Assembly: GCF_007860105.1 (NCBI RefSeq) | Contig: NZ_SJPU01000002.1 | Span: 84,837 to 148,836, forward strand | DNA: 64,000 bases | Direction: 5' to 3' | From: Allorhodopirellula heiligendammensis | GTDB taxonomy: Bacteria > Planctomycetota > Planctomycetia > Pirellulales > Pirellulaceae | Shown: positions 26,396-47,518 of the stretch, piece after piece | Numbering within the stretch: the first letter of the stretch is position 1 | How the letters are laid out: each line of letters starts with the position of its first letter | Notes under the pieces: generated by a model | The model's database searches: none | What the model was told of the DNA's origin: nothing | Seen by the model: only the letters and a program-made list of their open reading frames with translations | Program-made: the position numbers and the translations under genes

Positions 26396-26433
26396 TACTG
26401 CAAAATGCCTAATTGACAGCTGAGGAAGCCAAC

Positions 26434-30556: not shown

Positions 30557-30702
30557 GGGAGGGCAGCGGGTAGGGAGATAGGGAGAGCGTGGGGCAGGTG
30601 GCGAGCCGGGGATGGCGTCCGAAAGGGAACGCGGAGGACTCGACCTCTCCTGACTCTCCGCGGACAACAATTTTCAATTATTCAGGGGGAGTTCCAACAA
30701 TC
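30557..30702. repeat. Purine-rich low-complexity spacer
   Basis: A G/A-rich run (30557-30630) followed by a hairpin with arms GCGGAG (30631-30636) and CTCCGC (30656-30661). It resembles the other low-complexity spacers of this window (34680-34840, 36380-36500, 37802-37850, 62095-62172). It separates the TolC and multicopper oxidase genes. Confidence 0.5.
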
Positions 30703-32166
30703 ATGTCTCAGCCAGAAAGACGCCGTCATTTTTTGAAAGCCGGTTCGATTGCCGCAGCCGCGGGCTTGGTTGGAAACTGGATGCGCAGCGATGCCGCCGC
30801 CCAAGCACCAGCTCGCACTTCCCACCCGCCCGTACGAGACGAATACGACGGCTTCTCCCGATTCAAGCCTTCACGAGGGAACGATCCTGACAGCGACTAC
30901 TACCTCGGCAAAATGATCCCGGGCTTTCGCAGTACCGCAGACGGACCAGCCCCCCTCGAAGCACCTGACCTAGAGAGACTGCCATGGAAAATGGTCCGTG
31001 GCGCGAAGGAGTTTCACCTCGTCCCGATGGCAGTCGAACGCGAGTTTCTGCCTGGCTATAAAATGAATGTGTACGGCTTCAACGGTAGTATGCCAGGCCC
31101 CACGATCGAAGTCACTCAAGGAGACCGTGTTCGCATCGTCGTCACCAACGAGCTTCCCGAGCAAACGACAACGCACTGGCACGGATTCGAGTTGCCTGTG
31201 CAGTACGACGGCAGCGAAACGCTGACTCAGAACCCGATCGAACCGGGTGCGTCTTTCGTCTACGAGTTTGATGTACACGAGGAAGGAACGTACTTCTATC
31301 ACTCCCACGTTCCGATGCAGGAAGCATTCGGGAGCGTCGGATGGTTCATTGTCCATCCCAAAAAAGTATTTGATCCACCAGTTGATCGAGACTTCGGGCT
31401 GATCTTCCAAAACTTCTTCATCGACAGTAACCAAAACATCGCTGATAGTTGGCAGATGGACTGGAACTGGCATACGATCAACGGACGCAGCGGCCCCTAT
31501 ACCACGCCGCTGGTTGTCAAGCATGGAGAACGGGTGCGTGTTCGCATCATGGATTTCTCCCCCATGCAGCATCACCCGGTTCATCTACATGGGCACACAT
31601 TCTGGGTGACCGGGCACGAGGGTGCTCGTATTCCTAAATCGGCATGGGTCCCTCGCAATACCGAGTTGATTGGGATCGCGCAAGCCACAGACTTCGAATT
31701 CATCGCAAATAATCCCGGCGACTGGATGTTTCATTGTCACATGGTCCATCACATGATGAACCACATGACTCGGCAAGTCGGCCCCAGGATCCGTCAAGAC
31801 TCCTCGGTGGACAGCTACCTTGCAAACCTCGCGAGCCGGCCTGCGGTCGATGCGGTGCGAACGGATCCAGGTTTTGCGACACCGGGGTACCCGCAAGAAA
31901 TGAAATCGATGAAGATGCCCGAAGCGATGATGAAAACGATCTGGAATCGTCGCGAAGTCCAAGGCATGCGCGCGACGTGGCCGATGTCGGTCATGGGGCT
32001 GATGACAACGCTGCGGGTCCTACCGGACGATCTTTACCACCGCGTGATGGAGACTGACGCAGAGATCCCCCCCGGAAGTATTTTTGAGGAAATTGTCAAC
32101 CGATTCGGCAATCCAGCCGACTACCAGCCCGCAAAAATGGGCGGCATGCCGGGAATGAAGATGTAG
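30703..32166 (+). CDS. Multicopper oxidase (CopA/PcoA/CueO-like), exported
   Basis: 487 residues from the ATG at 30703 with GGGGGAG upstream; the frame to 30589 would read through the spacer. The N terminus ERRRHFLKAGSIAAAAGL looks like a Tat signal (RRRHFLK). Copper sites: HWHG (His158), HSHVPM, HPVHLHGHTFW and HCHMVHHMMNHM (His344), which supply type 1, 2 and 3 coppers; the Met after the last His is a candidate axial ligand. The Met/His-rich C terminus (MKSMKMPEAMMK, MGGMPGMKM) may bind extra copper. Such enzymes oxidise Cu+ to Cu2+ in the periplasm. Confidence 0.92.
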   Translation: MSQPERRRHFLKAGSIAAAAGLVGNWMRSDAAAQAPARTSHPPVRDEYDGFSRFKPSRGNDPDSDYYLGKMIPGFRSTADGPAPLEAPDLERLPWKMVRGAKEFHLVPMAVEREFLPGYKMNVYGFNGSMPGPTIEVTQGDRVRIVVTNELPEQTTTHWHGFELPVQYDGSETLTQNPIEPGASFVYEFDVHEEGTYFYHSHVPMQEAFGSVGWFIVHPKKVFDPPVDRDFGLIFQNFFIDSNQNIADSWQMDWNWHTINGRSGPYTTPLVVKHGERVRVRIMDFSPMQHHPVHLHGHTFWVTGHEGARIPKSAWVPRNTELIGIAQATDFEFIANNPGDWMFHCHMVHHMMNHMTRQVGPRIRQDSSVDSYLANLASRPAVDAVRTDPGFATPGYPQEMKSMKMPEAMMKTIWNRREVQGMRATWPMSVMGLMTTLRVLPDDLYHRVMETDAEIPPGSIFEEIVNRFGNPADYQPAKMGGMPGMKM

Positions 32167-32772: not shown

Positions 32773-33927
32773 CTATCGAAGCCGCGGCGCGTCGACGCCC
32801 TGCCGGGCAAGTTCGGCAAGCCACTTTTGAGGCTCCGCAATAATTTTCTTGGCACAGCCGGGGCAACAGATATAAATTGCCTTGCCGCCTGCATGCACCT
32901 TGTAAGGTCCGCCCATCGCGTCGAGCGGCTCATTCATGACTGGGCACTGTTTCTGAGCAGCGACGAAGGGCTCGTCGGCTGCGGTAATTCTGAAGACCCC
33001 TGCCCGGACTTGCTCTGTTCCTGCTGGCACACTCCCACTATCCGCATCGTCCATAGATACGCTCCTAGTTCCTTGAATCATGGCTAGATACTTCGCGGGT
33101 TCGGCTTCGAGTTTCTTGATGCAGCCCCGGCAACATAAGAAGATGGGCTTGTCGCCAATGAGCACCTTGACCGGCGTGCCCATGCCGCCGAGTGGCTCGT
33201 CCATCACGGGACAAACCTGTTGGCGTTCGATCGCGTCGACGTCAGCGGCAGTTGCAGTCTCAATCTTGATCTGCGGACGTCCCCCTACGTATTTTGCTGG
33301 CTCCGACTCTAGGGCACCAACACAGCCAGCACAGCAAACAAAAACACGCTGATCATTCACATCCACTGCGACAGGATCACCCATGCTACCAAGCGGTTTA
33401 CCAGTGACTGGGCAAATTTTCTGGCGAGTGATCGCTGCGGATGCCAGCTGCAGAGCACCGATGGGCACCGTCGCGACTTCGTTCAGTCGAACTGCTCGGC
33501 TACCAACCGCATGGAGGCCAACCAACTGTATCTGGATTTCAATTTGAAGTCCCGCGATTTCAGACAGGTCGACGGGCGCGATCAAGCCACCCTTGCCGTC
33601 CGGCAGCAGGTCATAGCGATAGCGTTTCGCATTGCCCTCCACTCGCAATGACGCTGCACCACGACCACCATCGACCGCCACGGGTTGCCCGTCGAGATCA
33701 AAGACGAACACCTCGATGCCAGACTGAGACACTACCGTCTCAAGCTGGATGGTTTCCGATTGCTTGAGCGAGCCCCCGTGTGGCCCCGTCGAGATTTCAC
33801 TTATTTGCGAGACTGCCGCATCACCAGGCATCTCGTGATTCCGCTCGGCATGAATATGTTGGGCCATGGCGGTTGACACCGACATGGAGGCGAGCAGGGC
33901 GAGGGAGAGTAGAATTTTGCGTTTCAT
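32773..33927 (-). CDS. Secreted protein with three YHS-like CCxGC repeats
   Basis: 384 residues from the ATG at 33927 (CGGAGTC upstream). Signal peptide LLSLALLASMSVSTAMAQ, then a His-rich start (HIHAERNHE) and a beta-rich domain to about residue 160. Three tandem units follow, each CPV(T/M)xxPLxxMGxPxxV...(V/I)(F/Y)(V/L/I)CCxGC...EPxK(Y/W), about 65-75 residues apart. The Cys and Met layout is that of YHS metal-binding domains, with CCxGC in place of the usual FCSxxC. A periplasmic copper binder is likely by context. It ends the minus-strand series with cusB and cusA, and resembles the two-repeat protein at 46886. Confidence 0.75.
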   Translation of the reverse strand: MKRKILLSLALLASMSVSTAMAQHIHAERNHEMPGDAAVSQISEISTGPHGGSLKQSETIQLETVVSQSGIEVFVFDLDGQPVAVDGGRGAASLRVEGNAKRYRYDLLPDGKGGLIAPVDLSEIAGLQIEIQIQLVGLHAVGSRAVRLNEVATVPIGALQLASAAITRQKICPVTGKPLGSMGDPVAVDVNDQRVFVCCAGCVGALESEPAKYVGGRPQIKIETATAADVDAIERQQVCPVMDEPLGGMGTPVKVLIGDKPIFLCCRGCIKKLEAEPAKYLAMIQGTRSVSMDDADSGSVPAGTEQVRAGVFRITAADEPFVAAQKQCPVMNEPLDAMGGPYKVHAGGKAIYICCPGCAKKIIAEPQKWLAELARQGVDAPRLR

Positions 33928-34036
33928 GATTGAGACTCCGTTAGTTTTTTCGCGGCCAATCCGTTCGGTCGCAGGGTTCATTGATTGGGGGTTCGATGCT
34001 TCGATCGGTTGATTTCTTCACGAAGTTTTTGACAAT

Positions 34037-37000
34037 TCAAGCTGCTTGGGTGAGTCCCTCCTGAGGCATTTCCTCCGTACCCTCCCAAAGTTCGTCGTGC
34101 ATGCCGAACCGCATTTTCATCTCCAGATATCCGCTATAGAGCGTGGGAACGATGAATGATGTGAAGGGTTCGGCGAGCATGCCACCGAACACCGGAATCG
34201 CCATAGCGCGGGCGACATCGGCACCGCGACCAGTAGCGAGCAGCACGGGAATCAGGGCCGCGAGCGTGGTCACGGTCGTCATCATGCAGGGACGAATTCG
34301 TTTCAGACCGGCTTCATAAACCGTCTCCCGAATGTCCTGCACATTGGTGATCCGGCGTTTCCGCAAGAGTTGGTGGATGTACGTTGCCATCACCACGCCG
34401 TCGTCGACCGCCAAACCAAACAATGCGATGAACCCAACCCACACCGCGGTATTCAGTTCCACCTGCATCCAAGCGACCAACACCATCCCGCCGGCAAAGG
34501 CCACTGGAATTCCTGTGAACACCGCCATCGCGATCGGCAAATTTCTGAATTCGAAGTAGATCAAAAGAAGGTTGATTAGAATCACTAATGGAATGATCCA
34601 CATGAGCCGCAGGTTCGCTTCAATCTGGTTCCGGAAACTTCCGACCGCTTCCAGGGAATAACCGGCCGGTAAGTCGAGAGAGAGAGGTTCCGCGACCGGG
34701 GAAGTCGCAGACAGGGAGAGGGGACGCACGGGAGATGTTTCGCGTGTCTCCGTGTCTCCAGAAAACCGTGTCCCCCGATCGCCTCGTCTCGTGCTCTGAC
34801 GTTCCCCCCCTCTCTCCTTCCTCCCTTCGTCCGTGCTTGCCAACTGTGCTAGACGCAACTGTTCCTCGATTGCAGCGACGGACTCCAGATCGCCCTTTGC
34901 TCCACTGGTCATGAAAGCGACATGCGCGACCAGCCGTCCATTCTCGCTATTGATGGCACCGGGTCCCCAGGTCGTTTCAAGTTGGGCGAGCTCTTCGAGC
35001 GGGACGACTGCGCCGCTGTTGGTGACAACGGGTAGCCGGGTTAATTGATCAACTCGCTCCCTCAGCTCGCGGTTATACCGCAATCGAACTGGGTAGCGTT
35101 CACGGCCTTCCACGGTCTTGATCAGGTTCATGCCACCGAGGGCTGTCTCGATCACTTCATTGACCATCTCCGCACTCATGCCATAACGGGATGCGGCATT
35201 TCGATCGACGGTGAATTCAATGTAAGGCTTTCCCATGACGATGTCTGGATTTACCGTACCTGCATTCACCAGTGGTAACTTTTTCAAGATCGCCGCGACA
35301 TCAATCGCTGCGGACGCCAACTCACTCAGATCGTCGCCGTAAATACGAATCGCCATCGATGCCTTGATCCCGGACTGCAGCATCACCACGCGACCTTCGA
35401 TCGGCTGCAAGGCAGATGCGGGCGTGACGCCAGGAAGCGTTGCCACACGATTGATCTCGTCCCAGATGTCCCGCGACGTGACTCCCTCTCGCCACTCGCT
35501 TTCCGGCTTCAGCATCACATAGGTCTCCACCATCGCCGCGGGTGCGGGATCCAGAGCCGACTCAACTCTACCAATCTTACCGAGCACATCTTTGACCTCG
35601 GGAATCTGTCCAATCAGGACGTCCTGTGTCTGCAGCACCTGCATCGCCTGAGAAAAACTGGCGGCAGGATAGAGGGTGGGCATGTAGAACCAACTCCCTT
35701 CATCAAGGGCGATCCAATCATCGCTCTGCAAGCCAGTAAAGACATGCTTGGCATCGACGTATCCTGGGAATTCATTCAATTCGGCACCCAACACGCGAGC
35801 AAGTCGCTCCACGGGTTGCAAGACCGTCGGCAGACCAAAAAAGGCGCCAACGCCGATCAATAGCAAGATCGCCGGGAATGAAAGGGCAAGTACCTTGTGG
35901 TGGAGGGCATGCTTCAATCGTGCTGCGTACAGCCAGTGGACGAATCGACTCGAGGGAATCTCTTCGATGGGCCGGATGCGTTCACGAAGCAGTTGCCAAC
36001 CGAGAAAGAATGCCAGCGGCCCTGTCGCGGCAGTGATGACCCAAGGGGCGACACCCAGGTAAGCTGCCACATCGTCTCCCCACATGAAGTACGACGTCGC
36101 GGTCAACAGACAGCCGAACGAAACTCCTGCAGCGAAGGCAGTCCGCTTTCGATAGCTTGCACTCTTGAGCAAGAGTCGACTGAGCGCGGGCACGATCGTG
36201 ACTGCTGTAATCATTGCGGCAGCAATCGCGAACGTCTTCGTGTACGCCAGCGGAGAGAATAGCCGGTAGTCGCGCCCGGTCAGGAAAAAAACGGGCAGGA
36301 AGCTCACAATCGTTGTTGCCACGGCCGTCACCACCGCAGGCGCCACTTCGATCGTTGCTTCGTAGACCACGTCGCTTCGCGACCGAGGAGCAGAGAGTGG
36401 AGGAGCAGAGAGTGGAGGAGCACAGGAGACCGGGAGATCAGAAATCGAGGAACCGCTGCTCTCAGCGTCTCCTTGTCTCTCACGTGCCATGTCCGCTGGG
36501 CTGCCCCGCTCGGTTTCTTCCCGCTCCCAGTCAGCCAGATGCTGATAAATGTTCTCCGACACGATGATCCCCATATCGACCATGGTACCGATCGCGATCG
36601 CAATGCCAGCCAACGACATGATGTTGGAGCCCACGCCGACCAAATGCATGGCGATGAAAGACATTAATACGGCGGCAGGTAAGCAAATCGCGACTACAAA
36701 GCTCGTGCGGATATGCATTAAGAAAAGCAAAATGATGATAGCCGTGATGATGATCTCGTCTCGCAAAGCGTGAGTGAGAGTCGCCATGGTCTCGTCGATT
36801 AAACCGCTGCGATCGTAGACTCCGTGGATTCGAACACCATTGAGTGCCGGTGTAATTGCCGCAATCTTGTCCTTGATCCGCTCAATCACGACGCGAGGAT
36901 TCTCGCCGTATCGCATCACGACCACACCGCCGACCGCTTCGGATCCGTTGTAATCAAGTGCACCACGACGGAAGTCGGGGCCGAGTTGCACTCGTGCGAC

Positions 37001-37801
37001 GTCACGGACGCGAATGGGAACTCCGCCGCGCTGCAGGATCACCGTGTCTTCGATATCGGAAATTGCTTTCTCTTTTTCTCCGCCGGTACCTAGAAAGCCC
37101 TTACCGCGGACGATGAACTCCATACCCGTCGTTTCGACCGTTTTGGCTCCCACGTCGACGTTGGACGCCTTGATCGCCGTTGCCAGCTTATCGAGGGGAA
37201 CATTGTGATACCGCAATTTGTCGGGATCCACTTCGACTTGGTATTGGCGGATGTAGCCGCCGATCGACGCCACCTCGCTCACTCCCTCGACGGCCTGCAG
37301 TTCGAATTTGATAACGAAGTCTTGCATGCTGCGAAGCTCCGCCAAACTCATCCCGTCTTTTGGCGGCTGGAGCGTGTAGTAATAAATCTGCCCCAATCCA
37401 GTGGCGTCTGGCCCAAGCTGCGGAACGACGCCATCGGGTAACTGCGACGCGGCCGAGCCGATTTGCTCGGAAACGCGACTGCGAGCCCAGTAGAAGTCAA
37501 TCTCGTCTTTGAAGGTCACCTGAACGAAGCTGTAACCGAACATGCTCTTACCCCGAACCGATTCTGCGCCGGGAACCGCCAGCAAAGACACACTCAGGGG
37601 ATAGGTGACTTGATCTTCAATATCTTTCGGCGAACGGCCGGGCCACGGTGTCAGCACGATGACCTGGTTTTCGCCAACGTTAGGTATCGCATCGATGGGA
37701 ACGGCTTGGAACGCGAAGTACCCACCGACCGACGCGGCAATGGCTAGCAATACGACTAGCCATGGTTCTTTCACGCAGAAGCGGATGAGCAAGTTAAGCA
37801 T
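34037..37801 (-). CDS. cusA: Heavy-metal efflux RND pump (CusA/CzcA-like)
   Basis: 1254 residues from MLNLLIRFCVKEPW; an ATG-type start 8 codons earlier is less like the family. It is an HME-RND inner-membrane pump: PWPGRSPKDIEDQVTYPL, YDRSGLIDET, the proton-relay Asp in GTMVDMGIIVSENIY, and FIALFGLAVDDGVVMATYI. The family is usually about 1040 residues. The excess comes from an expanded segment between the first pump half and the second periplasmic loop, plus two low-complexity inserts (about 36376-36516 and 34676-34845). It exports Cu+/Ag+ or a similar ion from periplasm or cytoplasm to the TolC duct. Confidence 0.9.
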   Translation of the reverse strand: MLNLLIRFCVKEPWLVVLLAIAASVGGYFAFQAVPIDAIPNVGENQVIVLTPWPGRSPKDIEDQVTYPLSVSLLAVPGAESVRGKSMFGYSFVQVTFKDEIDFYWARSRVSEQIGSAASQLPDGVVPQLGPDATGLGQIYYYTLQPPKDGMSLAELRSMQDFVIKFELQAVEGVSEVASIGGYIRQYQVEVDPDKLRYHNVPLDKLATAIKASNVDVGAKTVETTGMEFIVRGKGFLGTGGEKEKAISDIEDTVILQRGGVPIRVRDVARVQLGPDFRRGALDYNGSEAVGGVVVMRYGENPRVVIERIKDKIAAITPALNGVRIHGVYDRSGLIDETMATLTHALRDEIIITAIIILLFLMHIRTSFVVAICLPAAVLMSFIAMHLVGVGSNIMSLAGIAIAIGTMVDMGIIVSENIYQHLADWEREETERGSPADMARERQGDAESSGSSISDLPVSCAPPLSAPPLSAPRSRSDVVYEATIEVAPAVVTAVATTIVSFLPVFFLTGRDYRLFSPLAYTKTFAIAAAMITAVTIVPALSRLLLKSASYRKRTAFAAGVSFGCLLTATSYFMWGDDVAAYLGVAPWVITAATGPLAFFLGWQLLRERIRPIEEIPSSRFVHWLYAARLKHALHHKVLALSFPAILLLIGVGAFFGLPTVLQPVERLARVLGAELNEFPGYVDAKHVFTGLQSDDWIALDEGSWFYMPTLYPAASFSQAMQVLQTQDVLIGQIPEVKDVLGKIGRVESALDPAPAAMVETYVMLKPESEWREGVTSRDIWDEINRVATLPGVTPASALQPIEGRVVMLQSGIKASMAIRIYGDDLSELASAAIDVAAILKKLPLVNAGTVNPDIVMGKPYIEFTVDRNAASRYGMSAEMVNEVIETALGGMNLIKTVEGRERYPVRLRYNRELRERVDQLTRLPVVTNSGAVVPLEELAQLETTWGPGAINSENGRLVAHVAFMTSGAKGDLESVAAIEEQLRLAQLASTDEGRKERGGERQSTRRGDRGTRFSGDTETRETSPVRPLSLSATSPVAEPLSLDLPAGYSLEAVGSFRNQIEANLRLMWIIPLVILINLLLIYFEFRNLPIAMAVFTGIPVAFAGGMVLVAWMQVELNTAVWVGFIALFGLAVDDGVVMATYIHQLLRKRRITNVQDIRETVYEAGLKRIRPCMMTTVTTLAALIPVLLATGRGADVARAMAIPVFGGMLAEPFTSFIVPTLYSGYLEMKMRFGMHDELWEGTEEMPQEGLTQAA
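36385..36420. repeat. 15-bp tandem repeat inside cusA
   Basis: GAGGAGCAGAGAGTG occurs twice in tandem (36385-36399, 36400-36414), with a third copy beginning. Read on the minus strand it encodes the five-residue repeat APPLS. It lies within the first low-complexity insertion of the pump and keeps the frame. Confidence 0.85.
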
Positions 37802-37849
37802 GTGGACAGAGCGACGGGGAGACAAGGAAATAGGGAAACACGAAGGGAG

Positions 37850-38397: not shown

Positions 38398-40545
38398 TTA
38401 CCTTGTCTCGCTCAACCCTCCCACAACTTCCCCGCACTCGAGCATCTCACTGCCCCAATAGGGATTGCGAAGTTCCACGTTCGACTGCATCCAGTCCCCA
38501 CCTCCTCCGGGCACCATGGGACAATACATGTGATAAATACTATCTCTGGATTGTGGCCCCATCGCTGATACGGTGGCTCGCAACAGCGCTTGACTGACGC
38601 TCCGAAAGGCCATGCGATCTGATTCCAAGGAGCCGCCCATGCGACGAACACCACGTCTGGCTGCGGCAAACTGCAACTGGGCATCATCGGGAACATTCCC
38701 CAGCAACTCCAATTCGTGCAGTGAATCCAGCAACGTGTTGAGCGTGACCGGTGGCGGTGTTGAGTCGGCCGCCAGGGAGCGTTGGATCTCAAAATAAGCC
38801 TCGTAGGCTCGATCGAACTGCTTACCGGCCTCGCCCGCTAGCGAAACGGGTTCGCGACTGGTGAGGCGGAGCGGACCAGGCGAATAGCTCGGCGCTCGGC
38901 TGGGGTCCAGCAAAGACGGATTGCCCGTGAGCTGCATCTGAGAGTCGATGAGGAAATTACCGTTCGTGGCAACGGTCTCACCCACCGCCAATCCTTCGAC
39001 CATGATCGCGTCGTGGTCATTCATCGCGCCCACGGTGACTCGGCGGATCTCAAACCTACCCGGTTCCGTTTCGACATAGACGACGCCGTATTGCCCGGTT
39101 AACAGCACCGCTTCACGAGGCACCGTAACCACCCGTTGCGCCTCCACTGGCTTGGATGCATAGCCCAGTTGTGACGTCGCGATAAGCTTCATTCCGCATA
39201 GCGGGCACTCGCCCGGTTCGTCACGGATGATCTGAGGGTGCATGGGGCTGATGAACTTGCCTGCCAACGCAGGGTCGTAGACGGTATCGGTCGGAATGGC
39301 GGGCACACGGATGCGCGCTGTCGCAAAATCTCCGGGCCGCAGCTTGCCATCGAGATTCAGCACTTCCACGCGTACTTGAACGGTGCGGGTATTGGGATCC
39401 ACTGTCGGATCGATGAACGCGACCCGGCCAGTAAACACTTCGCCGGGCATTGACTGGATCTCAGCTTCGACTTGCTGGCCAAATCGCACCGATGCGGCGT
39501 CGTCCGGGAATAAATCCAGCATCATCCAAACGGATGTGAGGTCAGCGATGCGGTATATTTTCTGCCCCGTTTTCAGATAGTCGCCCTCGACAGCTGCTTT
39601 CTCCAGCACCGTTCCGGTCTGGGGTGACTTGATACGGATGCGAGACTGGGCCTTTCTGGTTTCACGCAGATCATCGATTTGATCAGCGGTCATTCCAAGT
39701 TCACTCAGATTCTCACGGGCCATCGCCTGCATGTCCGGGCTATTCGCGCTGAAACGCCCCACGGATCTGCTTTCGAGGCTGGTGGTGTACTCGGTCTGTG
39801 CTGAGTAGAGTCTGGGGCTATAGATGAGTGCGAGGTCATCACCCTCAGTGACTTTGACCCCCACATAGTCCGCGTACAACTCTTCTAAGCGTCCGTCGAT
39901 GTAGGCGGAGATCGTCGACAACCGGCTCTCATCAAAATCGATTGAACCAATCGTGCGAATCGTCCGATTCACTTCCCCCAATCTGCTGGTTGCAGTTTGA
40001 ATTCCTACTACACGGCGTGCCGCGGATTCGATCGTAACCGAGATCCCGTCGCCACCGCCGCCGCTAGCCGCTTCGACCAATTCCATTCCGCACACCGGAC
40101 ATCGTCCTGGCTCGTGCGATGGTGGCGTGCACATCATGGGGCAGATGTAGCGTTTTTTTTCACCATTGATGGCAGAGCCCACGGCTTCGAGATTGTCGCT
40201 ACCTGAAAACCCAGTTGCCGTGACCCATTCAGACCGCTGAGCCACGCCGATCAGAAACAGAATCAAAGCGGCAACCGCGACGACCACGCCCGCATTCACC
40301 CCGACACCTAGCAGCCATCGGAAACCAGCTGCTAACGACTCCGCAGATGGATCAGGAACCAGGGGTTTCTCCGCTGGTTCGGCCCCGGCCGCCGGAGCTT
40401 CGGCCGTCAATTTACTCTCCGACTCTGTCGCCTCAGCTTCCTCATCAATTTGAGCGTTGATCGCTACGTTCAAGCTCGACTGAGATGATTGCGATCTACA
40501 AATGTGATCAGGCTCGATATCGCCGTGGGGTATTTCGTCTTTCAT
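38398..40545 (-). CDS. cusB: RND efflux periplasmic adaptor (CusB-like) with two HMBDs and a DUF3347-type C terminus
   Basis: 715 residues. A cytoplasmic Glu/Ala-rich start, one transmembrane helix (about 83-103), then a heavy-metal-binding domain (YICPMMCTPPSHEPG, CPVCGMELV), the membrane-fusion core with barrel-sandwich and hairpin (IKSPQTGTVLEKAAVEGDYL), a second HMBD whose first Cys is Ser (FISPMHPQIIRDEPGECPLC), and a C-terminal domain with YCPMVPGGGGDW and NPYWGSEMLECG, typical of DUF3347 in CusB-like proteins. Periplasmic adaptor linking CusA to TolC and probably handing metal to the pump. GAGG lies before the ATG. Confidence 0.9.
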   Translation of the reverse strand: MKDEIPHGDIEPDHICRSQSSQSSLNVAINAQIDEEAEATESESKLTAEAPAAGAEPAEKPLVPDPSAESLAAGFRWLLGVGVNAGVVVAVAALILFLIGVAQRSEWVTATGFSGSDNLEAVGSAINGEKKRYICPMMCTPPSHEPGRCPVCGMELVEAASGGGGDGISVTIESAARRVVGIQTATSRLGEVNRTIRTIGSIDFDESRLSTISAYIDGRLEELYADYVGVKVTEGDDLALIYSPRLYSAQTEYTTSLESRSVGRFSANSPDMQAMARENLSELGMTADQIDDLRETRKAQSRIRIKSPQTGTVLEKAAVEGDYLKTGQKIYRIADLTSVWMMLDLFPDDAASVRFGQQVEAEIQSMPGEVFTGRVAFIDPTVDPNTRTVQVRVEVLNLDGKLRPGDFATARIRVPAIPTDTVYDPALAGKFISPMHPQIIRDEPGECPLCGMKLIATSQLGYASKPVEAQRVVTVPREAVLLTGQYGVVYVETEPGRFEIRRVTVGAMNDHDAIMVEGLAVGETVATNGNFLIDSQMQLTGNPSLLDPSRAPSYSPGPLRLTSREPVSLAGEAGKQFDRAYEAYFEIQRSLAADSTPPPVTLNTLLDSLHELELLGNVPDDAQLQFAAARRGVRRMGGSLESDRMAFRSVSQALLRATVSAMGPQSRDSIYHMYCPMVPGGGGDWMQSNVELRNPYWGSEMLECGEVVGGLSETR

Positions 40546-40776: not shown

Positions 40777-41382
40777 TCACAGCCGCCACATGCAGAGCTG
40801 GATCTGAGAGAAGTGAGGTCGTACGCAATCCACACCACGATCGTTGCGAGGGCGCCGTGGAAGGTGCTGACCACCAAACAGGTCGGCCAAGTCGGAGTGC
40901 CGAATCGCAACCGCATCCCGAGGAGGAATGGTTGGGCGGGTCGGCGCAGGTTCACCCAGAGGAGAGCTCTCGACTCCGCAGTGACAGGTGGAGCTGATGT
41001 CAACATCGCCCGTCGAGTTGGGAATTGCGATCCCCAGGCGAGTATCTAGAGAGGGTTCGGCTGTACTGATCACGATGGTTTTCAGTTCCAGCGTTCCACC
41101 GGACAGTGAAATCCGTTCCGGTGTATCCGAGTCGGCTTCTTCCCTGCAGCAATCATTCTTGTCTGCTGAACGCTCGCCAACGTCGCAGCAGGAACACTTC
41201 AGCTCTGGCGTGGCGACTTGGCAGCATCCACAGCCATCACACGTGTCAGTGGATGCACATGTTGCACCGCAATCCTTCGCACCACATTCACTCGCCCGAG
41301 CCAACGCCATCCCCGGCTGAATCATCATTGCGACGATCAGTGAAAGATTAACGACGGTACGAATTAGACGCGAGCGAAACAC
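40777..41382 (-). CDS. Secreted Cys-rich protein
   Basis: 201 residues from a GTG at 41382 with GGAAGGGG upstream; a longer frame to 41433 would overlap the operator. Signal peptide VVNLSLIVAMMIQPGMALA, then about 12 Cys within 50 residues (ECGAKDCGATCASTDTCDGC, CC, CSCC, DCC). The second half is Ser/Pro/Arg-rich with few Cys. Metallothionein-like metal binding is inferred from composition and place. It is upstream of cusB (232 bp) on the same strand, under a CsoR-type operator at 41402-41416. No known family was recognised. Confidence 0.65.
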   Translation of the reverse strand: MFRSRLIRTVVNLSLIVAMMIQPGMALARASECGAKDCGATCASTDTCDGCGCCQVATPELKCSCCDVGERSADKNDCCREEADSDTPERISLSGGTLELKTIVISTAEPSLDTRLGIAIPNSTGDVDISSTCHCGVESSPLGEPAPTRPTIPPRDAVAIRHSDLADLFGGQHLPRRPRNDRGVDCVRPHFSQIQLCMWRL

Positions 41383-41401
41383 GTTCCCCTTCCGAAACTG
41401 A

Positions 41402-41416
41402 TACCTAGACCCGGTA
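41402..41416. promoter_or_regulatory. Putative CsoR operator in a divergent promoter
   Basis: TACC-N7-GGTA (ATACC...GGTAT with flanks) lies 19 bp before the GTG of the Cys-rich gene and 100 bp before the second TolC gene, so it could control both directions, including the cusB-cusA series downstream of the Cys-rich gene. Confidence 0.65.
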
Positions 41417-41515
41417 TACGAAGTATATCGCAAATCGGGCCGGAAAGTTCAAGGCAAGTCAGAAACTCGCTTTGAACGATCCACTCACAGAGTAACTGGA
41501 TGGAGCCAGTTTGTC

Positions 41516-43183
41516 ATGGCGCGAACTCAAAATCGGGACAATTCCAGCCGGCGAGCGCGTCATTTGTTAGCGCTATCGATCATCGCGTCCTGCACAGCTG
41601 GTTGTGCTACCAGGCGACCAAAATCCACATGGGGGACGCACGCGGTGTTGCCCCCAGCGGTCACCCACGCCGGGCCGGAAACGTCCGGAACGATCGCCCT
41701 TGAACACTCCAGTGAGGAGGCATCCGACCTGCGCTCGGTCGGTTACGAAGACGTCCAGATGGTGAACCGCAGCGACCGAGATGCTGCAGTTCTTGATGCG
41801 CCCGAAACACCCACTCAACTTGATCTGAACGAAGAGGCCACAGCGAAACCATTTAACAGACTCCTTGCGATCGATTTCGACAACGGCAATCAGAGAGATC
41901 GAGATGAGTCTGACGGCGAGCTGGTGCAACCAGGAGACAGGCCGGGATTAGGAACCGCAGACTCTCTCGCTCCCGCCCGCTCATACACCAGCCAACCAGT
42001 CGGCTATTTTGTGCAGCAGGCACTCGCCACGCACCCCAGCATTCAAGCGGCCCGGCAGCGCGTCTATGCGGAACAGGATCGAATCCCACAGGTAACCGCT
42101 CTCCCCGATCCGCAGTTCAACAACACCTTCTGGCCATTGGAAAACAACGCGACGCAAACCGCCGCCGGCCGAGTCGCCAACCAGATGTCGCTGCAACAGG
42201 GAGTGCCGTTTCCAGACAAACTTCGCACCCGAGGAGCAATTGTCAGCCGCGAAGCGCAAATGGCCCAGGCGGAACTCGAACGCATCGAACGACAGGTCAC
42301 CGAATCCGTTCGTCTTGCATATTATGAGGTGTGGTACGCCACCCGGGCGATGCAAGTGATCGAACAGACGCGAGAGCTCGTCGACGACCTCAATAGGGTC
42401 GCTGAAGCCCGCTATCGCGCCGGCGGAACTCAGCAAGACGTCCTCCGTGCTCAACTTGAAATCGATCGGTTGGATGACCAATTGATCCAGCTTCGCAGAC
42501 AAAAGGAGGTCTCCCAGGCCGACCTGGCCGCCCTCATGCAGCAGCCGATCGCATTGATGGCCGAAGCAACCGAAGAACTCGACATTGCTGACGCACCCAT
42601 TCAGTTAGCGGCGTTGATAGCGCAAGCTGAGCATTGCAACCCCAGTCTCCGGGGGCTCGCAGCTGAAATTCAGCGTGATCGCCAACAGCAAAAATTAGCT
42701 TGTTTGCAACAGTATCCTGATTTTATGGTGGGGTTGAACTGGGGCATCGTCAGCGACAACCACGATGTGCTTAGCCCAGTTGCCAACGGCAATGATCAAC
42801 TCAGCCTGACATTCGGCACCACACTGCCAATCTGGCGTGAAAAGATCGATGCTGGAATCCGTGAAGCGAGTCGCCGCACCAGCAGCACTCAACAACGTCT
42901 CGAAGCCGAGCGAAATGAGATTTATGGGCGTCTTCGCCGACTTCTCTCTCAAGCCGATGCGCTCGTCGAGCAGGATGAACTTTACCGAACGCGCCTCGTA
43001 CCGCGGACGGAAGACACGCTGAGGTTGGCGGTCGCGGACTATCGGGGAGAACGCACCGACTTCTACACGCTCATCGAAACCTACCGAGAGCTCCTCATGT
43101 TCGAAACACAACTGGCTCGCATTCACGCCACACTTGCGGGCACAATCGCGCAGATCGACCGCACTGTTGGCTGCCCTTACTGA
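41516..43183 (+). CDS. TolC-type outer-membrane efflux lipoprotein (CusC-like)
   Basis: 555 residues with a lipoprotein-like signal ending in IIASCTAGC (Cys about residue 25). A low-complexity acidic segment of about 120 residues follows, then two OEP repeats of long helices (YFVQQALATHPSIQAARQR opens the first; AALIAQAEHCNPSLRGLAAE the second). It is the probable outer duct for the CusB-CusA pump, with which it is divergent. It differs from the TolC-like protein at 29120 by the long acidic linker and the lipid anchor. Confidence 0.87.
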   Translation: MARTQNRDNSSRRARHLLALSIIASCTAGCATRRPKSTWGTHAVLPPAVTHAGPETSGTIALEHSSEEASDLRSVGYEDVQMVNRSDRDAAVLDAPETPTQLDLNEEATAKPFNRLLAIDFDNGNQRDRDESDGELVQPGDRPGLGTADSLAPARSYTSQPVGYFVQQALATHPSIQAARQRVYAEQDRIPQVTALPDPQFNNTFWPLENNATQTAAGRVANQMSLQQGVPFPDKLRTRGAIVSREAQMAQAELERIERQVTESVRLAYYEVWYATRAMQVIEQTRELVDDLNRVAEARYRAGGTQQDVLRAQLEIDRLDDQLIQLRRQKEVSQADLAALMQQPIALMAEATEELDIADAPIQLAALIAQAEHCNPSLRGLAAEIQRDRQQQKLACLQQYPDFMVGLNWGIVSDNHDVLSPVANGNDQLSLTFGTTLPIWREKIDAGIREASRRTSSTQQRLEAERNEIYGRLRRLLSQADALVEQDELYRTRLVPRTEDTLRLAVADYRGERTDFYTLIETYRELLMFETQLARIHATLAGTIAQIDRTVGCPY

Positions 43184-43252: not shown

Positions 43253-43882
43253 TCACCCCCATCCAAGCCGCTCCAGGTGTGCTTTTAACTCACGTCTGGC
43301 CCGATTCAATCGCGAGCCGACTGTGCCCTCCGGGATGTTCATGACCTCCGCAATCTCGGCGTAGGAGAGGTCCTGCACCTCTTTCAACGTCAGCACCACA
43401 CGCAACTCCGGTTCGAGCTTGGCGAGTCCAGCCTCCAAGATTTCAGCGTCCTCCAGCCGGAGTCCGAGATCACTGATCTTGGACTCAGGCTCAACGCTAA
43501 GTGTGTCAACGTCACGTCGCTTGCGACGTCGCAGTAATTGCAATGCCTCGTTCGTCGCGACTCGATAAATCCATGTATCGAGGCTTGACTCACCACGGAA
43601 GCAATCTAGCTTGCGAAAAATCTGCATGAATGCCAACTGCAATGCATCGTCCGCGTCCTGTCGCCCCACCATGCGAACCATCAAGGCGTAGACGCGGCCG
43701 CTACATTGATCGTACAGCCGCGCCATCGCATTGCGGTCACCCGCCAGACACTGCCGAACCATGTAGTCGGTAGCGACAGAATCATCCGAAACTCCACTCA
43801 ATTCGTCATCGCTCGATTCGCGTGGGTGGCTCAACAAGTGGCACTTTTGGGCTGACAAGAGTGTGCGTCCTCGAGGGCACAA
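43253..43882 (-). CDS. ECF-type RNA polymerase sigma factor
   Basis: Up to 209 residues (start uncertain: only TTG codons are in frame in the first 40 positions). Region 2: DYMVRQCLAGDRNAMARLYDQ, DADDALQLAFMQIFRKLDCF, SSLDTWIYRVATNEALQLLRR. Region 4: LEPELRVVLTLKEVQDLSYAEIAEVMNIPEGTVGSRLNRARRELK. It directs transcription of a stress regulon. It has no C-terminal Cys-rich extension like that of CorE-type copper sigma factors. A perfect CsoR-type dyad lies 29 bp upstream, so copper may induce it. The anti-sigma-like gene at 45668 is a candidate partner. Confidence 0.9.
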   Translation of the reverse strand: MCPRGRTLLSAQKCHLLSHPRESSDDELSGVSDDSVATDYMVRQCLAGDRNAMARLYDQCSGRVYALMVRMVGRQDADDALQLAFMQIFRKLDCFRGESSLDTWIYRVATNEALQLLRRRKRRDVDTLSVEPESKISDLGLRLEDAEILEAGLAKLEPELRVVLTLKEVQDLSYAEIAEVMNIPEGTVGSRLNRARRELKAHLERLGWG

Positions 43883-43947: not shown

Positions 43948-44655
43948 TTACGCGACATGCCGGTGCTTCGCTTCTAGCGTCGCAGCTTGACAACCAAGCG
44001 TTTGACGAATGCGAGTGGACAGTCGAAAGACGTCGCCACCATACTCGATCAATTGAGTAACACCTAGAAAGTCGGCCATCGCGTAGTCATAGACCGCGAC
44101 TTCAGCACCATAAAGGATGACTTGCGTGTCTCCACTGAACGCGGCAAGCTTCGGCGATAGCTTCCATGCATCTACATCGGGAGAGTGAAGTGATGCGACG
44201 ACCAATCGAGGATGATGTGTCCCACAGGCTCTGAGCGTCTCAGCAGCGGAGGTGGCTCGCACCACGCGATGGTCTAACTCCCGCAAGTCACCGGTCAACC
44301 GAGCGAATACCTCATCACGGGGTTCAATCACAAATGCAATGGGACGTCCGTACGGTGAGCGACGTCGATATGCCTCGGGAAGCGACTCGTCGGTCTGCCT
44401 CGGTGGACGGCGCGATGCAGCCCTTTGCATTCCTTGAATGACGGTCGAAATGGATCGCGCAGTCCTGATTCCGTTGGATTGCTCGGTCACGACGAATGTG
44501 CCGTTGCAGTGAACACACGCGACGCTTTCGCGATCGAATTGCTGCGGTACCTGCGCCGGGTGCCCGCAAACGGGACAGTTCATCACGAATGGATCTGTCG
44601 AGGTGCGCTGGTATCTCGGTGTCGCGACGGGCGCAAATAGTTCTTGCATGATCAT
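43948..44655 (-). CDS. Zinc-ribbon plus degenerate receiver-domain protein
   Basis: 235 residues. N-terminal zinc ribbon (NCPVCGHPAQVP, ACVHCNGTF), a linker, then a CheY-like fold from about residue 105 (PIAFVIEPRDEVFARLTGD, RVVRATSAAETLRAC, LVVASLHSPDVDAW). At the position of the phosphoacceptor Asp the sequence reads SL, and the usual late Lys is also missing, so it is probably not phosphorylated in the normal way. It ends 66 bp before the sigma-factor frame on the same strand, but the operator lies between. A regulatory role is inferred. Confidence 0.7.
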   Translation of the reverse strand: MIMQELFAPVATPRYQRTSTDPFVMNCPVCGHPAQVPQQFDRESVACVHCNGTFVVTEQSNGIRTARSISTVIQGMQRAASRRPPRQTDESLPEAYRRRSPYGRPIAFVIEPRDEVFARLTGDLRELDHRVVRATSAAETLRACGTHHPRLVVASLHSPDVDAWKLSPKLAAFSGDTQVILYGAEVAVYDYAMADFLGVTQLIEYGGDVFRLSTRIRQTLGCQAATLEAKHRHVA

Positions 44656-44726: not shown

Positions 44727-45131
44727 CTACAAACGAAAACGACACAAGAACACGCAAAGAGATGCACCAGCGAGCACATTGGGTGCCCCCTCCGCGGCCA
44801 AGCGAGATCGAGCACGACTGCTGATATGCCAGCGGCAAGCCGGTTCGCTCGCCAAGATTTGCGCGTATGACTTTTGCTGGGGCTCTACACCTTGGTCGGG
44901 AGAGCCCTGCTGGCACCCCCAGGGACAGGATTCACCGCGGGGCAAAGACTCCGCTGCACAGCAACGCTCAGGCGAGCAGCACGACTCGACCGCACCCCAT
45001 GTACCCGCAGTGGGCCCAGTACCGGCTACCGAAAAATCCAGTGGTGACGGGTGATGTGCACAAACGCAGTTCGCTGACCGCGGTGCCCCAGCGGAGAACA
45101 GAGCGACGGCGATCAGTGTGGCGAGTTTCAT
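44727..45131 (-). CDS. Small secreted Cys-rich protein
   Basis: 134 residues from the ATG at 45131 (MKLATLIAVALFSAGAPRSA signal; in-frame ATGs at 45146 and 45155 add a few residues). After the signal are Cys pairs and clusters (CVC, ESCCSPERCCAAES, SCPWGCQQG). A short Cys-containing tail, LCVFLCRFRL, ends it. It is unlike any family I recognise. The same general plan (short signal, Cys clusters) as the 40777 protein suggests a second exported metal-binding peptide. It is divergent from the anti-sigma-like gene. Confidence 0.5.
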   Translation of the reverse strand: MKLATLIAVALFSAGAPRSANCVCAHHPSPLDFSVAGTGPTAGTWGAVESCCSPERCCAAESLPRGESCPWGCQQGSPDQGVEPQQKSYAQILASEPACRWHISSRARSRLAAEGAPNVLAGASLCVFLCRFRL

Positions 45132-45667
45132 CAGGCTATCGAACATTGGGTTCATTGGATCGTCCGTGATCGTGAATCGCTCAACGCCCGATTCCCCGGG
45201 CTGGTCTGGCTAGCTTGGATGCATACTGAGCAGTGGTCCTTCGCGAAATCATGCACAATTCTGAGAAAAAGATGCTCGCGTCTCTCGGGCGTGTTGGAAA
45301 AGCCGCTGCACAGCCCCCCGCTCACGGAAGTTTTGACGGCAGCAGATCGCGGCTGGGACGAGTGCGAGCCATTACCTCGCGACTTCCGACTTGCCAACCA
45401 GGTGGGATGTGGGAGAATTTCTCGGTCAGTGAATCCATTGGTGCTGACACGGAGAGGCCCCACGCTCATATTTAGTTGAGATAGTAAGGTTTTCGTGAAG
45501 AGCACGGCGTCGTCAGGCATCAAATTGAACGTCGGCAGGACCGATGAGTACCGACGTGATGAGTTTAGGCGTAATGGCGATCGCTTCCTGGCCCTCTTTG
45601 ACGCGTTTCCACATTGAACGCAAACCCCGTCCCACGACCGATGTTTACTCAGAATTAGATAACTGCG
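45132..45667. other. Intergenic, about 535 bp, divergent promoter region
   Basis: The space between the Cys-rich gene and the anti-sigma-like gene. Frames at 45152-45523 (minus), 45219-45479 and 45233-45475 (plus) overlap one another and lack domain or signal features. No TACC-N7-GGTA site was found. An ECF-dependent promoter may lie here but could not be identified by eye. Confidence 0.5.
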
Positions 45668-46573
45668 ATGCGTTGCGAATCCGTTTCAGAACAGCTTTCC
45701 GCGCACTTCGACGGCGAGCTTTCGCAGACCCTGTCTCACGAGATCGACTTGCACGTTGGACAGTGCACGACGTGTCGCGAGGAGCTCGATAGTTACGCTC
45801 GAATCAGTAGATTGGTCGGTCAGGATTGGAATGGATCGCAGCCACCGCCGTGGGCGGCGTTCGCGGCGAAGTTGCAGACCGAGCATGCGATGACAGAGAA
45901 CGTGTCAGGCAATTCGCCTGCTGCTCGGAAACGGCAGTCGATGGTCAAGGATATTCTAATTATCGCCGCGTCGTTGGCGGCATCGATCGCAATCTTCACC
46001 TGGTCGTGGCGAGCCTCCCCAGCACCTGAACAGGTCGCCGATGCGGGCCATCGGCACTTGGCGGAACGGCCGCTACATGCGACCTCCATCAGTTTTCAAG
46101 ACACTGTTTCGCTGCAACAGGAAGACACGGAACTGGCGATGAGAGCATTAGCAAAAAAGTATGCGGGTCGCGAAGCCTCGGCTGATGAAGTGGTCAAACA
46201 GGTCGGCTTCCGAACCTTGGTGCAGTCGCCTCTGCCTAGCGGGGCCAAGCTGATTTCAACGCAATTGCTGACGCTGCCGCAATGCGCTTGCGTTGCAGGC
46301 GAGTGTATGTGTGGGCCTGGCGATTGCAACTGCGTCGCGTGCGTCTGCGAACGTCCTGACGGATCAACGTTTCTAGTCATCGAACAGTGCAGTGGACAGA
46401 GTGTGGATTTTGGCGAACTGCCTGTGCGGCTGGTCCAGCATGGCGATCATGAGCTGCATGTAACCGGCAATGAACAGGGGCTGGCTGTGGCATGGACCGC
46501 CAATCAAACGCGGAAAATTGCCATCGGCCTGCGCGATCTCAATGAGATGGATCGTTTGTTAGCAGCCAACTAA
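45668..46573 (+). CDS. Anti-sigma factor with Cys-rich extracytoplasmic domain
   Basis: 301 residues. N-terminal zinc-binding anti-sigma domain (zf-HC2): ESVSEQLSAHFDGEL and HVGQCTTC with His29, Cys33, Cys36. One transmembrane helix at about 93-114 (ILIIAASLAASIAIFTWSW). The outer domain of about 185 residues has eight Cys at 206-227 (CAC, CMC, CNC, CVC spaced by GE, GD and VA) plus another near 241. Such anti-sigma factors hold an ECF sigma at the membrane until a signal arrives. The Cys cluster suggests that the signal is a soft metal, by inference. The ECF gene at 43253-43882 on the other strand is the nearest candidate partner. Confidence 0.8.
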   Translation: MRCESVSEQLSAHFDGELSQTLSHEIDLHVGQCTTCREELDSYARISRLVGQDWNGSQPPPWAAFAAKLQTEHAMTENVSGNSPAARKRQSMVKDILIIAASLAASIAIFTWSWRASPAPEQVADAGHRHLAERPLHATSISFQDTVSLQQEDTELAMRALAKKYAGREASADEVVKQVGFRTLVQSPLPSGAKLISTQLLTLPQCACVAGECMCGPGDCNCVACVCERPDGSTFLVIEQCSGQSVDFGELPVRLVQHGDHELHVTGNEQGLAVAWTANQTRKIAIGLRDLNEMDRLLAAN

Positions 46574-46885
46574 AACGCGGCCACAAAAACATAGCCGCAT
46601 CTGCAAGCAGTCGTTGATCGCCCCACCGACCGACGCGAGCACTGCATTTGCACGATGAGCTCGCCCCAGGACAACGGATCGAGGGAGCGGTCCCCAACAA
46701 TCATTGGAAGGGCAGAAAGCCTATTACCGGAAAGCACTGACTTTCCGTGAAGAAACGGTGCTGCCGAAGCCTCTCAAGAGCAACGTTCAACGCTAAGTGC
46801 GACTCAGGGATGCGGGATCTCACGCGGGATACCGGATCGCCTGCATTGCACCTCTTAAGTTCCCCAATGGAAGGACAAATCACAG
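46574..46885. other. Intergenic, 312 bp
   Basis: Between the anti-sigma-like gene and the two-repeat secreted protein. No gene, tRNA-like fold or TACC-N7-GGTA site was seen. It should hold the promoter for the downstream gene. Confidence 0.5.
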
Positions 46886-47518
46886 ATGAAAGTAGCACGA
46901 TTCCCTAACATCGCCCTCGCCTTGGCCGTATTCGCGGGCGGATTCACAGCGACGTCGAGTTCCGCCGATGACGGCCACGAACATCCTGCGAGCCACGAAC
47001 ATGCGACGGTGTCAAAGGCCGAAAAGCAAATTTCGGCAGCCTTGTCCGGCTTGACACCGGAAGACAAGAAACTGGCGATGAGTCAGCGATTCTGTCCGAT
47101 TAGGACGCACGATCGTCTCGGTGCGATGGGTACACCGCAGAAACTGACGATCGAAGGCAAGCCGGTGTTCGTATGCTGCAAGGGTTGCGTCGATAAAGCT
47201 GTTGCCGGTGGCGCCGCAACGGTTAAAACAGTCGCGAAGCTGCGCGACTCGACACACACGCTGGCGAAATTGCCAGTGGCAGAACGCAAAGCAATCGAAG
47301 CACAGAAGTATTGTGCCGTTGCCAGCCACAGTCTACTCGGTGCGATGGGGGAACCGATCAAGCTAGAAATTGACGGCACCCCCGTGTACCTGTGTTGCAG
47401 CGGGTGCACCAACAGGGCACAGTCCAACCCCGTCGCGACGCTGGCCAAGGTGAAGGAGCTGAATACGGCGGGAACTCGCAACGGTGGCGATCAAGATCAT
47501 GCGGACCACAAGCACTAG
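46886..47518 (+). CDS. Secreted protein with two YHS-like CCxGC repeats
   Basis: 210 residues with AAGGA before the ATG. Signal peptide IALALAVFAGGFTATSSSA, then a His-rich segment (DDGHEHPASHEHAT). Two repeats follow, each with C..., LGAMGxPxKLxIxGxPV(F/Y)(V/L)CCxGC (about residues 70-102 and 145-175). The C terminus is DQDHADHKH. It resembles the three-repeat protein at 32773-33927, sharing the layout and the CCxGC core. A periplasmic metal-binding role is inferred. An intrinsic terminator follows downstream. Confidence 0.75.
   Translation: MKVARFPNIALALAVFAGGFTATSSSADDGHEHPASHEHATVSKAEKQISAALSGLTPEDKKLAMSQRFCPIRTHDRLGAMGTPQKLTIEGKPVFVCCKGCVDKAVAGGAATVKTVAKLRDSTHTLAKLPVAERKAIEAQKYCAVASHSLLGAMGEPIKLEIDGTPVYLCCSGCTNRAQSNPVATLAKVKELNTAGTRNGGDQDHADHKH

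Follow-up and report, generated by a model that had tools for sequence, protein, structure and literature searches.

The window analysed here, a 64,000-nucleotide stretch of the Allorhodopirellula heiligendammensis genome, holds at 45668-46573 a gene for a membrane anti-sigma factor with a dense cluster of cysteines in its outer domain and, 1.8 kb away and divergently oriented, a gene for an extracytoplasmic function (ECF) sigma factor that we propose as its partner. The original prediction had described the anti-sigma factor as a zinc anti-sigma domain joined to one membrane helix and an outer domain with eight cysteines within residues 206-227. This anatomy is borne out by the open reading frame (ORF), a match to Pfam PF13490, an alignment and structure models. 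The features of the gene, with their basis in brackets, are as follows.

45668..46573, plus strand: anti-sigma factor of 301 residues, Cys-cluster subfamily (ORF from ATG, zf-HC2, family alignments, tree)
45668..45829, plus strand: zinc anti-sigma domain, residues 1-54 with His29, Cys33 and Cys36 (PF13490, structure and profile matches)
45953..46009, plus strand: single membrane helix, residues ~96-114 (sequence by eye; model helix 84-116)
46067..46570, plus strand: outer domain, residues 134-301, with a fold like the RseB C-terminal domain (structure model, without a sequence-profile match)
46283..46348, plus strand: Cys cluster, residues 206-227, in a loop and the second strand of the outer domain (alignment of 17 members)
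46388..46390, plus strand: Cys241, the ninth outer cysteine, beside the position of His240 of plain CCxC relatives (alignment)

The outer cysteine cluster

Residues 3-37 match zf-HC2 (PF13490) with 28.2 bits against a cut-off of 22.2. This is the sole domain above cut-off in the Pfam scan of the protein, and DUF1109 (the NrsF family) is not among the matches at that level. His29, Cys33 and Cys36 are invariant across 18 aligned sequences (the window protein and 17 relatives) and give the His-x3-Cys-x2-Cys anti-sigma domain of class I zinc anti-sigma factors. Structure comparison of the N-terminal domain returned MucA(cyto) (Z 7.2) and RslA (Z 7.1), and a profile built from 26 sequences matched the solved anti-sigma domains of RsiW (1e-6), DdvA (6e-6) and RsrA (8e-4). 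One long membrane helix is predicted (84-116 in the model, with a hydrophobic core at about 96-114 by eye), with domains on both sides; this predicted topology would put the cysteines at 206, 208, 213, 215, 220, 222, 225 and 227, plus the ninth at 241, on the outer face.

Homologues that combine zf-HC2 with the cysteine pattern were sought and form a subfamily in the Pirellulaceae. Nineteen Cys-cluster genes were read from 17 genomes, our own included, and 17 were aligned, the window protein among them; the cysteine count leaves out locus L078, a near copy of L077, and L182, which is identical to L181 (L and G numbers are our labels for loci and genomes of relatives). C206, C208, C213, C215, C220, C227 and C241 are cysteine in all 17 members and C222 in 16, in the pattern C-x-C-x4-C-x-C-x3/4-C-x-C-x4-C followed by E-x-C ending at 241. 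With seven positions invariant and an eighth nearly so, the cluster stands out beyond chance. The conserved set differs from the eight cysteines listed originally because C225 is kept in only 8/17 members; it still numbers eight, with Cys241 (17/17) in the place of C225. The view that all eight listed cysteines are important was rejected for C225. In the modelled outer domain, the eight cysteines of the cluster are located between the first strand and the end of the second strand. Together, the domain match and the alignment support the reading of the protein as an anti-sigma factor whose outer cysteines form a conserved cluster.

Twenty-four plain relatives in the same alignment do not have a 14-residue stretch that is present in the cluster members. 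They carry CC-x-C (placed at 205, 206 and 208) in 23/24 cases, Cys227 in 17/24, His240 in 24/24 and a further cysteine at 258 in 23/24, with Cys241 in 0/24. The placement of CC-x-C is ambiguous (219-222 in the 18-sequence alignment versus 205-208 in the larger one), and its exact counterpart within the cluster depends on the alignment. As judged from these alignments, the Cys-cluster subfamily is an elaboration of a wider anti-sigma family that carries the CCxC motif, and the exchange of His240 for Cys241, together with the added CxC pairs, would resemble a re-built metal site. Two loci of one genus, L091 and L095 (genomes G030 and G396), have lost CCxC (HGDA and QGDC) and kept the adjacent sigma gene; no CusA, CusB, CopA or multicopper oxidase homologue lies within their fetched stretch, and they form a natural control.

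The wider family was matched in 23 of 60 near-relative genomes (our own included) at E 0.001 and in 71 of 241 genomes of the family Pirellulaceae at E 1e-8. A phylum-wide whole-family profile matched 335/392 genomes and is not used as a family count: among the matches listed, all beyond the first six cover mainly the zinc-finger part, and those six, in five genomes, span the profile. A related-locus search with four Cys-cluster rows returned one locus, that of R. europaea 6C. A literature search over titles and the starts of abstracts, covering part of the matches, found no description of this anti-sigma family; broader surveys of ECF factors or planctomycetes may mention it.

Modelled alone, the outer domain reaches a predicted local distance difference (pLDDT) of 91.3 and a predicted template modelling (pTM) score of 0.88, is folded from about residue 134, and comprises three helices, seven strands and a final helix. 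Fold comparison used two models, built from overlapping alignments. The best match is the RseB C-terminal domain 217-312 (2p4b; Z 9.0 over 96 residues, 2.8 Å). The next matches are MucB (Z 7.6), TM1622 (7.1) and then 5.8 for the outer domain alone, and TM1622 (7.8), an immunity protein complex (7.0) and Dip2269 (6.8) for the whole-protein model.

The sigma factor and its proposed pairing with the anti-sigma factor

43253..43882, minus strand: ECF sigma factor, proposed partner, without a Cys-rich tail (Sigma70_r2 and r4; sole group member found in the genome; co-occurrence)

The sigma factor consists of regions 2 and 4 and ends directly past region 4. The CorE-type Cys-rich C-terminal extension is missing, as had been noted from the sequence alone. 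A closer dedicated sigma factor elsewhere in the genome, the finding that the original prediction had named as speaking against the pair, was sought in this assembly (97.6% complete, 35 contigs) and none was found: with the sigma factor that adjoins the cluster anti-sigma of G007 as query, the window sigma scores 144 bits and the next protein 69.5. The genome search likewise found one anti-sigma factor of the Cys-motif family.

Across relatives the two genes occur together. Group sigma and anti-sigma are both present in 20/59 genomes and both absent in 39/59, with no mixed case (Fisher p 4e-16); a group sigma here scores at least 114 bits against the window sigma, genomes counted as lacking one reach 101.6 at most, and the p value is to be read with the facts that the cut-offs were chosen after the tables were seen and that the genomes are related. 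This count omits our own genome and G020 and G049, whose matches are weak and limited to the zinc finger. A group ECF sigma ORF lies directly upstream on the same strand in 15/26 near-relative loci (L023 and L024, zinc-finger-only matches, set aside), at gaps within 14 nt in 13 of them and of 57 and 370 nt in the other two.

The divergent layout of the window recurs in another genus, where the genes are 1.0 kb apart (G624). Since G624 shares the window order, the layout is not a private accident, and the idea that the split pair is a rearrangement private to this strain was rejected.

In the anti-sigma tree the window protein groups with G615 (two), G620, G624 and G572 (support 100/99), next to G007, G005 and G618 (96/90). 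In the sigma tree the window sigma groups with G624, G615 (two) and G620 (100/99), and the next to join is a second sigma factor of G007, G005 and G618 (95/87), which adjoins a TolC gene in G007 and G005. Read in this way, two sister sigma lineages accompany the Cys-cluster anti-sigmas, one mostly in an adjacent operon, the other as a nearby separate gene. Sigmas of the window type lie 0.6-25 kb from a Cys-cluster anti-sigma in 11/11 cases, a figure weaker than it looks, as eight of the genomes searched for the sigma were chosen for holding such an anti-sigma and both genes sit in metal regions. A further match of the group is present at G484:C123.

In the 10.8-Mb genome G615, group sigmas number four and anti-sigma match stretches nine, the latter spread over eight genes; each of the sigmas has an anti-sigma at a distance of 12-25 kb, as would fit parallel circuits in one cell. 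The group sigma genes of L206 (G618) and L110 (G018) have one in-frame stop within the match, possibly by decay or through a match that extends past the true start.

The promoter motif and the metal-efflux neighbourhood

A two-part, ECF-type promoter motif occurs in the window at four places.

45494..45524, plus strand: motif ahead of the anti-sigma gene, differing from the long form at one position (genome and locus motif scans)
45215..45245, minus strand: motif 60 nt before the Cys-rich/receiver-like/sigma unit, whose presumed first gene is 44727, one mismatch (motif scans)
33992..34022, minus strand: motif before the triple TRASH-like gene behind CusA, exact (motif scans)
46746..46776, plus strand: degenerate copy with two mismatches before gene 46886 (motif scan)

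The motif came out of a count of two-part words in the upstream regions of 33 selected genes, of which eleven belong to the window; GTGAA/CATC pairs occurred in 12 upstream sequences versus at most 3-5 in 20 shuffles. Its consensus is CGTGAAGRA-N14-GCATCNAA, and the strict form is nearly unique to the window region in the genome and repeated across the family loci of relatives. A spacing of 17 was found in 76 cases (72 distinct) in 52 family loci (1.0 Mb), where each other spacing from 8 to 26 has 0-15 cases, the 15 at spacing 16; 14 control loci (0.28 Mb) hold one spacing-17 case. L087, L088, L090, L097 and L135 are omitted from this count, and L084 and L136 also overlap. Within the 7.18-Mb genome GTGAAG-N17-CATCNAA is present at three places. 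Two are in the window, one ahead of the anti-sigma gene and one ahead of the triple TRASH-like gene behind CusA, and the third is elsewhere; a backward-read control has none. Up to one mismatch to the long form gives four places, three of them in the window (anti-sigma, triple TRASH-like gene, gene 44727). Two mismatches give 21 places versus 11 in the control, which leaves the stricter class as the only informative one. Sixty simulated windows held on average 0 (one mismatch) and 0.18 (two mismatches) copies, compared with 3 and 4 in the window.

Among relatives, homologues of gene 46886 carry the strict motif in L168, L169, L170, L172, L173, L174 and L175, and adjacent-type sigma genes have the motif directly in front of them as well (L077, L078, L171). 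L169 has one motif ahead of its sigma unit and another ahead of its anti-sigma gene. Of 65 distinct sites in the loci, 35 precede a labelled gene: 11 sigma, 10 of the gene-46886 type, 6 triple TRASH-like, 5 anti-sigma, 2 receiver-like and 1 CusB. The simplest reading is that the sigma factor, as the putative reader of the motif, drives its own unit, its anti-sigma and metal-handling genes. The genes around the pair are listed here.

43948..44655, minus strand: small protein, by eye zinc-ribbon-like at its N terminus and otherwise receiver-like, whose gene is presumed to be co-transcribed with sigma (in L169 a homologue adjoins sigma)
44727..45155, minus strand: small protein, Cys-rich and probably exported, whose gene presumably opens the sigma unit (homologue adjoins the receiver-like gene in L173)
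40777..41433, minus strand: small protein, Cys-rich and probably exported (in relatives, homologues adjoin TolC/CusB)
46886..47518, plus strand: protein with TRASH-like metal motifs, probably exported and probably part of the regulon (weak Pfam TRASH-type matches below cut-off; motif before homologues)
41516..43183, plus strand: TolC-type outer membrane channel, adjoins sigma (PF02321; synteny)
38398..40545, minus strand: CusB-type adaptor with heavy-metal-binding domains (PF16576, PF19335)
34037..37825, minus strand: CusA/CzcA-type heavy-metal pump of the resistance-nodulation-division (RND) type (TIGR00914, 802.6 bits, cut-off 701.45)
32773..33981, minus strand: protein, probably exported, in which three TRASH-like metal motifs are seen by eye (sequence; homologues in the loci of relatives; no NCBIfam match)
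30589..32166, plus strand: multicopper oxidase (best NCBIfam match copper_res_A, 149 bits, under the cut-off of 478.95; homologue behind the R. europaea 6C pair)
26413..28887, plus strand: copper P1B-type ATPase CopA (TIGR01511 ATPase-IB1_Cu, 582.4 bits, cut-off 397)

Protein 43948-44655 gave no family above cut-off in the Pfam and NCBIfam scans, and 40777-41433 and 44727-45155 gave no Pfam family in the scan of the window; the latter two, both Cys-rich, are possible periplasmic metal binders. The ORF at 37850-38341 on the minus strand, between CusA and CusB, presumably resembles a four-helix-bundle protein of the 23S rRNA intervening-sequence type. In L169 (G624) the order is gene 46886 homologue, anti-sigma, receiver-like gene, sigma, TolC, small Cys-rich gene, CusB and CusA; relative to the window, only the homologue of gene 44727 was not detected there.

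A CusA, CusB, CopA or multicopper oxidase homologue is present in 35/43 family loci versus 1/14 loci of other ECF factors of this genome (p ~1e-6) at a loose threshold of at least 100 bits to the window proteins, which includes distant RND pumps of unknown metal. Strict cut-offs (CusA 500, CusB 250, CopA 500 and multicopper oxidase 300 bits) give 24/43 versus 0/14 (p ~1e-4). L097, L137, L138 and the sigma-centred loci L127-L136 are omitted from both counts. In R. europaea 6C the genes for CopA, sigma, Cys-cluster anti-sigma and multicopper oxidase follow each other on one strand. The family of the anti-sigma factor is thus often found in metal-efflux loci; copper specifically is what we infer.

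A proposed copper-responsive circuit and related systems

We think it moderately likely that the protein at 45668-46573 is a copper-responsive membrane anti-sigma factor that holds the sigma factor at 43253-43882 until copper binds its outer cluster and then releases it. The membrane-bound zinc anti-sigma would keep the ECF sigma inactive at the inner membrane. The outer loop of paired cysteines (CxC-x4-CxC-x4-CxC-x4-C plus Cys241) would bind copper, most likely in a thiolate-bound Cu(I) site or small cluster, and the altered outer domain would release sigma either directly or through cleavage of the anti-sigma by a site-1 and then a membrane protease. Seven match stretches of site-2-protease type, in about five genes, are present in the genome and are compatible with proteolytic release. 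Freed sigma would transcribe from GTGAAG-N17-CATCNAA promoters of the anti-sigma gene, the sigma unit and metal-handling genes of the locus, and by activating its own anti-sigma it may form a self-limiting loop.

A more far-reaching version, which we put forward tentatively, is a distinct Pirellulaceae class of one-protein copper sensors that joins an RseA-like zinc domain and a helix to an RseB-like clamp with an inserted metallothionein-like CxC loop. Periplasmic copper would open the clamp and free sigma, and some cells might hold several parallel pairs with exchangeable partners. In RseB and MucB the C-terminal domain is described as the primary grip on the anti-sigma, which these proteins shield from cutting (PMC7400510). 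The hypothesis of a built-in clamp opened by copper is drawn by analogy with this grip and shielding.

Several results weigh against the copper-responsive circuit or its parts. The tree places the window sigma in a lineage that is sister to the sigmas adjoining the Cys-cluster anti-sigmas of G007, G005 and G618 (in a smaller tree this split is borderline, with an approximately unbiased (AU) test p of 0.0486 for a group named after the tree was seen). In these three genomes the cluster anti-sigma has its own adjacent sigma, and the window-type sigma lies 16-21 kb off. Because the window sigma belongs to the sister lineage, the predicted pairing rests on linkage, co-occurrence and the shared promoter motif and not on an inherited adjacent operon. 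As for the motif, 30/65 sites precede no labelled gene, and the window counts are not fully independent, the discovery set having included the window's own upstream regions. Outside the window, strict cut-offs leave a metal gene in 8/18 Cys-cluster loci, since the neighbouring genes are often those of more remote RND pumps of unknown metal, and even at the loose cut-off 8/43 family loci have no CusA, CusB, CopA or multicopper oxidase in the fetched stretch. Six of those eight keep the Cys motif (CCxC in L087, L090, L096 and L185, the Cys cluster in L173 and L175); the remaining two, from one genus, are the motif losers L091 and L095. Finally, best Z values of 7-8 are usual for models without a clear match, according to the guidance of the structure-comparison tool, the Foldseek match to RseB is weak (E 0.05), and MucB_RseB_C (PF17188) has no match in our own genome at E <=10 and none among the Pfam matches of the 26 members. 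As Foldseek is weak and no sequence profile agrees, the resemblance of the modelled domain to RseB is likely a likeness of fold, not family membership.

The alternative that survives best, though we consider it unlikely, is the same circuit with a main metal other than copper, namely silver or soft metals of the Cd/Zn/Hg type on the thiolate cluster. Soft metals in general bind CxC clusters, the family model passed by the window pump, CusA/CzcA, makes no distinction among the metals, and the RND pump near many cluster relatives is only distantly like the window CusA. However, the match of CopA to the copper P1B model reaches 582 bits (cut-off 397), and CopA and a multicopper oxidase flank the sigma/anti-sigma pair of R. 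europaea 6C.

It is less probable again that the cluster anti-sigma is an orphan in this genome. The sigma lineage to which it truly belongs would then have disappeared, and the sigma nearby would be free or under the control of a different protein. Sigma and anti-sigma lineages do separate in some other genomes, and a gene could be missing from an assembly that is 97.6% complete in 35 contigs. Against this, no second anti-sigma of the Cys-motif family was found in the genome, window-type sigmas lie near a cluster anti-sigma in all 11 cases (though eight of the genomes searched were preselected for such an anti-sigma), both trees recover similar clades (window, G615 twice, G620 and G624, with G572 close), and the divergent units of L169 have one motif each.

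We regard as improbable a redox or thiol-stress sensor in which a disulphide change of the outer cysteines releases sigma and copper acts only as an oxidant. Cysteines in the periplasm are exposed to oxidation. Two periplasmic cysteines of NrsF are required to hold sigma F, according to the account in PMC3511200. Yet the seven invariant cysteines, the repeated CxC spacing and the His240/Cys241 exchange would fit metal ligands better, and the metal-efflux context of the family loci also argues for a metal. The least probable alternative, a structural or buffering, metallothionein-like metal site with the signal supplied by something else, for instance a lipid or protein ligand of the RseB type, draws on the likeness of the outer fold to the RseB C-terminal domain, part of a non-metal sensor, but the cluster is elaborated and conserved in a subfamily, and the CCxC losers L091 and L095 are also without metal genes, though six motif-keeping loci lack these too.

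The apparent exchange of partners between the sister lineages of sigma and anti-sigma would offer a natural test of pair specificity. Gene regulation in Planctomycetota is little studied, and the locus provides a concrete candidate partner, a promoter motif and named cysteines. Periplasmic copper sensing runs largely via two-component systems. A single-chain anti-sigma that reads outside copper would be a compact further route beside these systems, reviewed with other periplasmic copper sensing in PMC10141476, and beside CorE.

Among known systems, the proposed circuit is like CnrYXH of Cupriavidus metallidurans in that an ECF sigma is held at the membrane and freed by extracytoplasmic metal, with an RND metal pump as target (PMC7689651). 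There, sensor and anti-sigma are two proteins, CnrX, a bundle of helices that uses a Met ligand in binding Co/Ni (PMC7689651), and CnrY, a class II anti-sigma (PMC8103513), whereas here zf-HC2 and a beta-rich Cys-cluster domain share one chain. NrsF of Caulobacter crescentus is likewise a putative anti-sigma, and two cysteines of it, probably periplasmic, are needed to hold sigma F in a system responding to Cr and Cd (PMC3511200). NrsF belongs to DUF1109 and has six membrane helices and two conserved cysteines, with no cluster described in that account, compared with one helix here. CorE (ECF238, formerly ECF44) of Myxococcus xanthus is a copper-linked ECF factor with a Cys-rich element, and its targets include a multicopper oxidase and a copper ATPase (PMC3107203, PMC10141476); in these accounts the Cys-rich domain is on the sigma itself and no linked anti-sigma was found, whereas here the cluster is on the anti-sigma.

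RseA/RseB and MucA/MucB also combine a membrane anti-sigma with a periplasmic regulator whose C-terminal domain is the best fold match; in those systems the regulator is a separate protein with a lipid-sensing N-terminal part, while here the C-terminal-like domain is fused and bears the Cys cluster. By profile, the zf-HC2-type anti-sigma domain is shared with RsiW, DdvA, RsrA and ChrR, with matches limited to the N-terminal domain. These proteins have other signals and other outer parts. Metal sensing through an anti-sigma complex is thus already known from CnrX/CnrY and NrsF, and the original claim of a different way of sensing metal outside the cytoplasm was overstated, even as the pairing and the metal link are strengthened beyond the evidence on which it was made. 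What appears to be new is the build, a zinc anti-sigma domain and a thiolate-rich outer domain in one chain.

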